Positions 58,518 to 61,357 of a stretch of 64,000 nucleotides of DNA are shown here, one piece after another. Both the position numbers and the translations under genes were made by a program. Position 1 is the first letter of the stretch. Every line of letters begins with the position of its first letter. Source of the DNA: Corynebacterium sp. NML98-0116 (GTDB taxonomy: Bacteria > Actinomycetota > Actinomycetes > Mycobacteriales > Mycobacteriaceae); contig NZ_CP017639.1 of assembly GCF_001767255.1 (NCBI RefSeq), forward strand, positions 1,076,875 to 1,140,874, read 5' to 3'. Below the pieces are notes generated by a model. The model was not told where the DNA came from and ran no database searches. It was given only the letters and a program-made list of their open reading frames with translations.

Positions 58518-59939
58518 ATGAGTAATCGAATTGAAGAAGATCTGCTTGGCACACTCGAAGTGCCCTCCGACGTCTACTACGGCATCCACACCCTGCGTGC
58601 CGTCCACAACTTCCCGATCTCCGGCCAGACCATCAATGACCTGCCAGAGTTCATTCGTGGCATGGTGGAAGTAAAGAAAGCCACCGCACTGGCCAACAAC
58701 CGCCTCCACGTTCTGCCAAAGAAGAAGGCGGACGCCATCGTCAAGGCCTGCGACGAGATCCTCGACAACGGTCGCTGCATGGACCAGTTCCCAATCGACC
58801 AGTTCCAAGGTGGCGCTGGCACGTCCCTGAACATGAACACCAACGAGGTTGTCGCAAACCTCGCTCTTGAGATCCTCGGTGAAGAAAAGGGTAGCTACGA
58901 CATCATCAACCCGAATGATGACGTCAACATGTCCCAGTCCACCAACGACGCATACCCGACCGGCCTTCGCCTCGGTGTGTACTACGCCGTCCAGGGCCTG
59001 CTGACCGAGCTTGAGGAGCTCACCAAGGCGCTCAACGCTAAGGGTGAAGAGTTCGACGACATCATCAAGATGGGGCGCACCCAGCTCCAGGACGCAGTCC
59101 CGATGACGCTCGGCCAGGAATTCACTGGCTTCGGCGCACTGCTTGAGGAGGAACTGGACGTCATCAAGTCCGCAGCACAAGCACTGCTGACCGTCAACCT
59201 CGGTGCAACCGCAATTGGTACCGAGCTCAACACTCCAGACGGCTACCGTCAGAAGATCGTTGAGGCTCTCGCGGAAGTCACCAAGCTGGATATCAAGGGC
59301 GCACCGAACCTGATTGAGGCAACGTCCGATACCGGCGACTACGTATGGATGCACTCCGCACTGAAGCGCGCCGCGATGAAGATCTCTAAGGTATGTAACG
59401 ACCTGCGCCTGCTGTCCTCCGGCCCACGTGCTGGCCTGAACGAGATCAACCTGCCGGAAATGCAGGCTGGCTCTTCGATCATGCCTGCGAAGGTGAACCC
59501 TGTCATCCCTGAGGTTGTAAACCAGGTGTGCTTCAAGGTCTTCGGCAACGACGTTGCCGTCCTGACCGCATCTGAGGCTGGCCAGCTCCAGCTCAATGTC
59601 ATGGAGCCGGTAGTTGCCGAGGCCCTGTTCAATTCCATCCGTCTCCTCACCAACGCAGTCCGTACGCTGCGTGAGAAGTGCATCGTTGGCATCACCGCTA
59701 ACAAGGATGTGTGTGAGGCCTTTGTGAACAACTCCATCGGCATCATCACATACCTGAACCCAGTGATCGGCCACCACAATGGTGACGTCATCGGTAAGGA
59801 AGCTGCTGCTACGGGTAAGAGCGTTCGTGATCTTGTTCTCGAGCGTGGCCTGCTCACGGAGGAGGAGCTGAAGGTTGTGCTGGGCAAGGACAACTTGATG
59901 CACCCAGAGTACCGCGGCGAATTTTTCGACGAGGACTAA
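58518..59939 (+). CDS. aspA: Aspartate ammonia-lyase (aspartase)
   Basis: Reversibly converts aspartate to fumarate and ammonia. 473 aa from ATG 58518, close to E. coli AspA (478). The fumarase/aspartase signature [11 protein letters not shown] is near residue 318. Other motifs are [18 protein letters not shown] and NMNTNEV. Codon use is strongly optimised, like the glycolytic genes, suggesting high expression. The position after hisG matches C. glutamicum. The following dcu gene makes it part of an aspartate/fumarate/succinate exchange system. Confidence 0.95.
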
Positions 59940-59963
59940 TCAACCAAAAGTAGTAAATCTCAC

Positions 59964-60039
59964 ACTCCCCTGATTCGGTAGTTATCGCCTCTTAGTGCGA
60001 TAATGGAAGCGAATACTAATTCGACCGAATCAGGGGAGT
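59964..60039 (+). promoter_or_regulatory. 16-bp perfect inverted repeat leader of the dcu gene
   Basis: ACTCCCCTGATTCGGT (59964-59979) pairs exactly with ACCGAATCAGGGGAGT (60024-60039). Inside, TTATCG (59982-59987) pairs with CGATAA (59998-60003). The 3' arm contains the AGGGGAG (60032-60038) that is the ribosome binding site of the GTG at 60044, and an internal TGC-GATAAT (extended -10, 60004 end) could start transcripts lacking the 5' arm. Confidence 0.75.
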
Positions 60040-60043
60040 TCCT

Positions 60044-61357
60044 GTGTTACTTGTGATACAACTCATCATCCTGTTCGGCGCCATTGTTCTCGGCGCCCGG
60101 ATGGGTTCCATTGCTATCGGTTTTGCCGGTGGCCTTGGCGTTTTGCTTCTCGGACTCACTGGTATGTCCGTAACCGCCGATGACATCCCCTTTGATGTCA
60201 TCGGCATCATCATGTGTGTGATCGCTGCTATTTCTGCAATGCAGCTGGCGGGGGGCATGGACTATCTCGTGTACCTCGCTGAGAAGTTCCTACGCCGCAA
60301 TCCAAAGCGCGTCACGGTGTACGCGCCAATCGTTACTTGGTTGATGACCGTGCTGGCAGGCACTGGCCACACCGCTTTTTCCACTCTTCCAGTTATCGTT
60401 GAGGTTGCTAAGGAGGGCGAAGTTCGCCCATCCCGCCCGCTTTCGGTCGCAGTCATCGCATCGCAGATGGCAATCGTGGCTTCCCCGATTTCGGCAGCAG
60501 TCGTCTTTATGGCCTCCGTGCTTGAGCCTCTGGGCGTCGGCTACCTGCAGTTGCTCGGCGTCATGATTCCTGCGACCTTCCTCGCGATTTTCCCAACCGC
60601 TTGGGTTTCGAACAAGCTTGGTAAAGACCTCGTTGACGACGAGGTGTACCAGCGTCGCCTCGCAGACGGTCTCGTAGCAAAGTCGAGCACCACCGAAGAC
60701 AGCTACAAGCCGAAGGATGGCGCAAAGGCCTCCGTGTGGATCTTCCTTGTCGCGATTGTCATCGTTATGTTCTACGCGACGATCATCTCCGATCAGATCG
60801 GTCTCATCGAGAACCCAACCGTCCCTCGTAACGAGGCAATCATGGCGATCATGCTTTCCGCTGCCGCTGCGATCCTGCTTATTACGAAGTCTCGCGCAGC
60901 TGAGGTCTTGAACACCCAGGTGTTCCGTTCCGGCATGTCTGCTTCTGTGTGTGTGCTTGGTGTTGCATGGCTGGGTACGACCTTTATTAACCACTACATT
61001 GAGGACATTCAAAACATTGCTGGTGACGTCCTGACGGCACAGCCATGGCTGCTCGCAGTCGTTCTGTTCTTCGCCGCATCTCTGCTCTACTCGCAGGCTG
61101 CCACCGCGAAGGCACTTATCCCAGCTGCTCTCGCAATTGGCGTCAGCCCGCTCACCGCTGTTGCAGCATTCCCAGCAGTGTCCGCACTGTTCGTGCTTCC
61201 GACGTACCCAACCCTGCTTGCAGCAGTGGAGATGGACGATACAGGCTCGACCCGAATCGGCAAGTACGTCTTCGACCACCCATTCATTCTGCCGGGTATC
61301 GTCTGCATCGCAGTCTCGGTAATTCTCGGCTACCTCATTGGGGCGGTGCTGATTTAA
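60044..61357 (+). CDS. Anaerobic C4-dicarboxylate transporter (DcuA/DcuB family)
   Basis: 437 aa, at least ten hydrophobic segments. Features are QLIILFGAIVLGARMGSIAIG, LAGTGHTAFSTLPVI, ASPISAAVVFMASVLEP and SQAATAKALIPAALAIGVSP, all typical of Dcu antiporters that exchange fumarate or aspartate for succinate. The GTG follows AGGGGAG by 5 nt. Downstream of aspA, so likely aspartate or C4-acid uptake coupled to aspartase. DcuA versus DcuB cannot be decided. Confidence 0.9.
   Translation: MLLVIQLIILFGAIVLGARMGSIAIGFAGGLGVLLLGLTGMSVTADDIPFDVIGIIMCVIAAISAMQLAGGMDYLVYLAEKFLRRNPKRVTVYAPIVTWLMTVLAGTGHTAFSTLPVIVEVAKEGEVRPSRPLSVAVIASQMAIVASPISAAVVFMASVLEPLGVGYLQLLGVMIPATFLAIFPTAWVSNKLGKDLVDDEVYQRRLADGLVAKSSTTEDSYKPKDGAKASVWIFLVAIVIVMFYATIISDQIGLIENPTVPRNEAIMAIMLSAAAAILLITKSRAAEVLNTQVFRSGMSASVCVLGVAWLGTTFINHYIEDIQNIAGDVLTAQPWLLAVVLFFAASLLYSQAATAKALIPAALAIGVSPLTAVAAFPAVSALFVLPTYPTLLAAVEMDDTGSTRIGKYVFDHPFILPGIVCIAVSVILGYLIGAVLI

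Follow-up and report, generated by a model that had tools for sequence, protein, structure and literature searches.

Translation starts buried in RNA helices have been described in phage and in bacteria. In bacteriophage T4, the Shine-Dalgarno (SD) sequence or the AUG of genes e, soc, 49, and I-TevI is hidden in an RNA helix, and the available portions of the reports describe late promoters for e and I-TevI whose RNA drops the 5' strand (PMC3014915, PMC2988022). In Bacillus subtilis, the accessible part of one study proposes that a hairpin of >20 bp blocks sigG in read-through RNA from the spoIIG operon (PMC5942855). In the same species, araL carries a stem of −21.4 kcal/mol that sequesters its ribosome binding site (RBS) in a polycistronic RNA; according to the portion of the source available, one base change that weakens the stem raised reporter expression about 30-fold, whereas a double change preserving the pairing gave none (PMC3207120). 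Here, we analyze a hairpin at the junction between aspA and dcu in Corynebacterium sp. NML98-0116. The junction lies in a 64,000-nucleotide (nt) stretch of contig NZ_CP017639.1 (positions 1,076,875 to 1,140,874), which we call the window and number from its first base. We consider it probable that this hairpin, within which the presumed dcu promoter is nested, hides the dcu start and silences its translation in RNA reading through from aspA.

The two genes, aspA (aspartate ammonia-lyase; 58518 to 59939) and dcu (anaerobic C4-dicarboxylate transporter, GTG start; 60044 to 61357), follow one another across a gap of 104 nt on the forward strand, as do the other elements of the junction. Profile matches above cut-off (the TIGR00839 equivalog and NF008909 for aspA; TIGR00770, NF006927, and PF03605 for dcu) agree with the identities given to them in an earlier reading of the window, hereafter the original prediction. 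An inverted-repeat search delimited a 5' (anti-SD) arm, ACTCCCCTGATTCGGT (59964 to 59979), which starts 24 nt past the aspA stop, and a 3' arm, ACCGAATCAGGGGAGT (60024 to 60039). The arms are 100% complementary (16/16 pairs) and enclose 44 nt, which confirms the perfect 16-bp repeat originally described. The 3' arm covers the dcu SD sequence, AGGGGAG (60032 to 60038), 5 nt ahead of the GTG at 60044, also as claimed. An inner hairpin (59982 to 60003) that had been put at 6 bp has 7 (TTATCGC, 59982 to 59988, with GCGATAA, 59997 to 60003). It overlaps the −10 hexamer of the presumed dcu promoter, GATAAT (59999 to 60004), which is present at the predicted place, preceded by TGC and downstream of the 5' arm. 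The 121 nt from 59940 to 60060 fold at −45 kcal/mol, compared with −24.0 ± 3.6 kcal/mol in 200 dinucleotide shuffles of this segment (z score, −5.8), none of which folded as well (0/200). Terminator scans of the window junction recognized no terminator in the interval from the aspA stop to the 5' arm; one scan listed a single weak 5-bp match (60031 to 60044), and a second scan listed none. The stem itself does not have the form of an intrinsic terminator: its loop is 44 nt long, it is followed by TTCCTGTG, and there is no G+C-rich short-loop hairpin with a T run.

We computed the cost of opening the region from −16 to +6 around the dcu start codon in two RNAs, a long one that begins at the aspA stop and represents read-through, and a short one that begins 12 nt past base 1 of the −10 hexamer. 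The predicted cost at 37°C is 27.6 kcal/mol in the read-through RNA versus 10.1 kcal/mol in the short RNA. When only the upstream part was shuffled, the cost dropped to 10.7 ± 1.6 kcal/mol and no shuffle reached the real value (0/100; z = 10.8); therefore, the hiding comes from the 5' arm. As modeled, then, the longer upstream transcript has its SD sequence buried in an RNA helix, the structural feature of hairpins of the T4 e and I-TevI type.

These predictions suggest how the junction may operate. Polymerase leaving aspA would meet no recognizable intrinsic terminator and would copy both arms; the read-through RNA, which we infer is made in the cell, would fold into the 16-bp stem and bury the dcu SD sequence so that ribosomes could not start. 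Left untranslated, this RNA may then be exposed to Rho or to RNases. When dcu's own promoter (TCACA element, GATAAT −10) fires, the RNA would start about 33 nt ahead of the GTG, without the 5' arm, and its SD sequence would be much more accessible. Dcu-family carriers exchange C4-dicarboxylates, e.g., fumarate, aspartate, and succinate; thus, the cell may want the aspartase without the exchanger, and separate control of dcu would presumably be of benefit. By silencing dcu in read-through RNA, the stem would insulate the transporter gene from its neighbor, a job apparently done by intrinsic terminators in many relatives.

The modeled dcu hairpin would work like those of T4 e and I-TevI and like the proposed sigG hairpin, and a promoter of its own, placed so that its RNA would lack the 5' strand, is likely at dcu as well. 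In T4 gene e (lysozyme) and I-TevI, as far as the available parts of the reports go, the long upstream RNA buries the SD sequence or AUG, RNA from an inner promoter lacks the 5' strand and is translated, and the late promoter of e lies within the region encoding the 5' strand (PMC3014915, PMC2988022). Those hairpins serve phage developmental timing through late promoters and are experimentally proven, whereas dcu is a bacterial metabolic gene and its hairpin is a prediction. The sigG hairpin, in the part of the paper available, is unable to arise in RNA made from sigG's own promoter, and this gene also has a GTG start (PMC5942855). In contrast, sigG encodes a sporulation sigma factor in another phylum and its hairpin is called proposed; at dcu, unrelated stems recur across species. 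The araL stem likewise lies over an RBS inside a polycistronic RNA, but its reporter was driven by the operon promoter, and the available portion of that study describes no inner promoter that escapes the stem (PMC3207120).

A similarity search with the intergenic DNA over 61 genomes matched none but the own genome and a single near relative; therefore, we located the junctions for comparison by way of the dcu protein and the position of its gene. Of the 242 Corynebacterium genomes, 170 had a match to a dcu-type protein, distant paralogues counted. The nearest named dcu relatives in the genome collection, from which the own record may have been excluded, are Corynebacterium sp. NML130628 (99% protein identity) and NML140438 (98%). 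The comparison drew on 80 named loci from the GTDB collection, some of them outside Corynebacterium (loci are given L numbers below). A first set of 53 junctions was chosen as distinct, 3 of which had too little upstream sequence, leaving 50 scored. Of 40 added genomes, we left out 4 without adjacent aspA-dcu and 4 in which the gap was too short and scored the other 32, with 60 shuffles each; 11 of these were copies of scored junctions and 21 were new, for a total of 71 distinct junctions. Where NATA[A/C]T or GATAAT was absent, the transcript start was set 30 nt ahead of the start codon. With strong start-hiding taken as z ≥ 3, a cut-off picked after the values were seen, 13 of the 71 aspA-dcu junctions show it.

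The window group comprises two further distinct junctions, L039 and L002/L033, with one G-U wobble and, in L002/L033, a mismatch besides; the stem is kept in NML130628 (one pair changed to G-U) and in NML140438 (one G-U, one mismatch), with z scores of 10.6 and 7.6. A second group (L005/L038, L035 from C. haemomassiliense, L040, L131, and L134; z = 3.9 to 6.3) has an unrelated 17-bp stem, CGGGCTCCTTCGGACAG with CTGTCTGAAGGAGCCCG, in which one pair is G-U and the 3' arm holds GAAGGAG; one pair is mismatched in L131 and L134. Further start-hiding folds, also unrelated in sequence, occur in C. senegalense L036 (z = 8.9), L122 (z = 5.1), and C. lowii L077 (z = 3.0) and, among the added genomes, in L168 (z = 4.4) and L176 (z = 3.3). 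In the unrelated stems, the 3' strand again lies over the SD sequence or the start codon. Since the arms of different groups cannot be aligned by sequence, we anchored the comparison of pairs between the two groups on the start codon. Of the 15 pair positions common to both, 9 differ on both sides yet pair, 5 are identical, and 1 differs on one side. By the covariation test that the original prediction proposed for the arms, compensatory divergence is seen only between groups; within each, the arms are conserved apart from some wobbles or mismatches. On a quick tree of the 53 junctions, the strong-stem state requires at least four changes by parsimony. As a control, aspA starts were scored with an upstream part of constant length (80 nt) and 60 shuffles; 37 loci were tried and 13 without a clear aspA start were dropped, and z exceeded 3 in 0/24 and 2 in 2/24.

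The placement of these stems bears on another possible role, namely, that the stem mainly serves the aspA mRNA, as a 3'-end stabilizer or an RNase III type processing site, with SD hiding as a by-product. Such a role would suit a very stable stem situated just past the aspA stop, with no terminator found after aspA in the window. Yet the unrelated stems elsewhere again cover the SD sequence or start codon, which would be needless for a stabilizer, and 16 bp is short for RNase III. We regard this role as unlikely.

The promoter in which we place the start of the short RNA is marked by two conserved elements. GATAAT lies 30 to 60 nt ahead of the start codon in 25/53 junctions, and the looser NATA[A/C]T lies in the same interval in 34/53, with 2.1 expected by single-base shuffling. 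The TGC that made GATAAT an extended −10 in the original prediction is not conserved in the second group. Upstream lies the element GTAGTAAATCTCACA (59950 to 59964; GTAGnnnAnaTCACA in relatives), a candidate activator site that ends in TCACA (59960 to 59964) and has only its final base in common with the 5' arm. From the start of TCACA to GATAAT, the distance is exactly 39 nt in 15 of the 20 scored junctions with both, 38 nt in L132, and 33 to 34 nt in the four junctions of the C. lowii group; GTAG stands six bases ahead of TCACA in 14 of the 15 junctions with 39-nt spacing, the window among them. TCACA-N34-GATAAT occurs a single time genome-wide, at the dcu junction. The 34-nt spacer between TCACA and GATAAT has only 26% identity from one stem group to the other, compared with 92 to 94% inside each group. 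With the element spacing fixed and the spacer diverged, the promoter frame appears fixed and the spacer free to change. The 5' arm lies in this spacer in the window or ends at the −10 in the second group; thus, RNA from the presumed promoter would not contain it. Not all strong stems outside the two groups share the frame: L036, L122, and L168 have AATACT or GATACT, TCACA was not found upstream of L036 and L122, and NATA[A/C]T was not found in L176.

Conserved GATAAT and TCACA at fixed spacing mark the presumed dcu promoter, whose transcript start we assume to be near 60011. The resulting leader of about 33 nt ahead of the GTG fits the class of 26- to 40-nt leaders in Corynebacterium glutamicum, where the −10 motif TAnnnT is found at about 97% of mapped starts, according to the part of that survey available (PMC3890552). 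As an observation in its own right, some members of the genus have a conserved GTAG-N6-TCACA element ahead of dcu at a fixed distance from GATAAT. TCACA resembles a half-site of the CRP/FNR family, and a factor bound at GTAG-N6-TCACA perhaps drives the inner promoter under other conditions.

The diverged spacer also speaks to two further readings raised in the original prediction. In one, the repeat acts as DNA: its arms are two operators of a dimeric regulator, which would loop or block the promoter that they enclose. The arms do flank the −10, and the 7-bp inner repeat overlaps it. But the arms of the second group are unrelated, the arm is absent elsewhere in the genome at ≤2 mismatches, and the conserved DNA element, GTAG-N6-TCACA, lies outside the arm except for one base. 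Because the arm sequences are unconserved while the pairing and the SD overlap are conserved, we consider a double operator very improbable. The second reading makes the long transcript a leader sensor, a riboswitch or RNA thermometer opened by ligand or heat. In their off state, such devices usually have the SD sequence sequestered in a stable stem. However, the predicted cost of opening the long RNA is still 25.8 kcal/mol at 42°C and 22.9 kcal/mol at 50°C, so this is no marginal stem that opens within a few degrees. For ligand sensing, Rfam gave no match at the junction or in 12 relatives (an undescribed aptamer would be beyond its reach), and the spacer sequence is not conserved between groups. 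A sensor is thus highly improbable in our judgment. Among the options first raised, choice between two promoters, acting as a translational switch, is best supported, by the modeled gap in opening cost between long and short RNAs, the unrelated stems in other lineages, and the conserved placement of the promoter; support is weaker for a thermosensor, a riboswitch, a terminator, or a twin operator.

The original prediction also held that a perfect 16-bp match was very unlikely by chance. A caveat is that long palindromes are present elsewhere in the genome: in a sample of 444 kb (the window plus 19 stretches of 20 kb), we found 31 perfect inverted repeats of at least 12 bp with arms 12 to 110 nt apart, 7 of which are at least 16 bp, the stem at the dcu junction included. 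Among the genome's palindromes, the dcu stem is set apart by lying over an SD sequence, by enclosing the presumed promoter, and by having counterparts of unrelated sequence in relatives. Its arm has no second copy at 0 to 2 mismatches in the whole 2.37-Mb genome; at 3 mismatches, it has 17 scattered matches versus 6 with a reversed control. We rejected the possibility that the stem is a copy of a dispersed palindrome family, given that the arm is unique at ≤2 mismatches and does not match the other palindromes found. A chance or passenger palindrome without function would be in keeping with the other long palindromes sampled and with the many relatives (58/71) that lack strong start-hiding. 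Against this, the stem is not a copy of another palindrome found, and start-hiding recurs with unrelated sequences at the dcu junction versus 0/24 aspA controls at z > 3. We give this explanation very little credence.

If start-hiding stems insulate dcu, they may stand in for terminators. We applied one rule to all junctions, under which a strong terminator is a hairpin of at least 7 pairs at ≤ −20 kcal/mol with 4 or more T in the 8 nt behind it; the energy cut-off was picked once the values had been seen. A strong terminator is found in 1 of the 13 strongly hidden junctions versus 34 of the 58 others (Fisher P = 0.0013, uncorrected for relatedness and therefore descriptive, since the junctions come from related species). 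Weaker terminator-like hairpins lie beside the stem in L035, L040, and L131 of the second group and in L168. Stem and terminator are thus distributed as if they were alternative insulators. The simplest reading is that the junction gains from insulation against aspA read-through and that lineages use a terminator, a start-hiding stem, or both.

Several observations weigh against silencing of dcu by a start-hiding hairpin or against its exchange with terminators. First, the initial T of the TAnnnT motif of C. glutamicum, as given in the available part of that survey (PMC3890552), is missing from GATAAT, and a consensus promoter scan did not list the site; were transcription to start upstream of the 5' arm, all dcu RNA would be blocked. 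Second, within each stem group there are only wobbles and mismatches and no compensatory change. Third, 58 of the 71 junctions lack strong start-hiding, and L043, L045, L132, L006, L133, L130, and L090 share the promoter frame without it, with L003 reaching only z = 2.8; the stem is therefore not needed for dcu. Finally, L176 has both a strong stem and a strong terminator, L007 and L170 have a strong terminator with z scores of 2.5 to 2.7, and 24 of the 71 junctions have neither strong hiding nor a strong terminator. The need for insulation is thus not universal or is met in ways that are not visible.

A broader proposal, which we consider possible rather than probable, is that at this one conserved junction Corynebacterium species repeatedly evolve unrelated start-hiding "translational insulators," with the 5' arm placed in the free spacer of a fixed promoter, and swap them with terminators. 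If true, insulation from upstream read-through would be a selected trait attainable by RNA folding, and similar stems may turn up at other tandem gene pairs when sought by pairing. Untranslatable read-through messages would then be a means of insulation besides terminators, and sequence conservation would be the wrong signal by which to look for it. The device sits on an ordinary metabolic gene and recurs with unrelated arms, which makes it a natural evolution experiment, and the junction is small and comes in 13 natural variants with strong predicted hiding. The hairpin type itself is already known; what is new is that it recurs with unrelated arms within a fixed promoter frame. Among the open-access papers searched, we recognized none that reports such a hairpin for a gene of Corynebacterium or another actinobacterium, which is no proof of absence.

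A different pairing is predicted in L003, L133, and L047, where a stretch just past the aspA stop pairs with the dcu start codon and first codons, not with the SD sequence. The −16 to +6 scoring window catches it only partly (z = 2.8, −0.3, and 0.0, respectively).

The palindrome sample also contained a dispersed palindrome whose arms, GTGCCAAAGGACGCAA, lie about 45 nt apart and have 55 matches (≤1 mismatch) in the 2.37-Mb genome versus 0 with the reversed control. The interior holds AAAAGCCCAGGTCG in the two copies read, and examples lie at L162:5678-5756 and L163:8779-8857 of the own genome (G000). All matches fall between about 2.02 Mb and, through the contig ends, 0.65 Mb, with none in the 1.37 Mb between. 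A genome of the same species has 58 matches, similarly one-sided (none between 0.34 and 1.73 Mb); among six other genomes, the counts are 27 and 12 in two near relatives, 1 in another genome, and 0 in the remaining three. Separately, a 27-bp perfect inverted repeat with arm CAAAGTGTAGTAACAGGATTGTAGTAA and 29 nt between the arms lies at L150:13116-13198, and the palindrome at L164:4659-4733 has TAGTAACAGGA in common with it.
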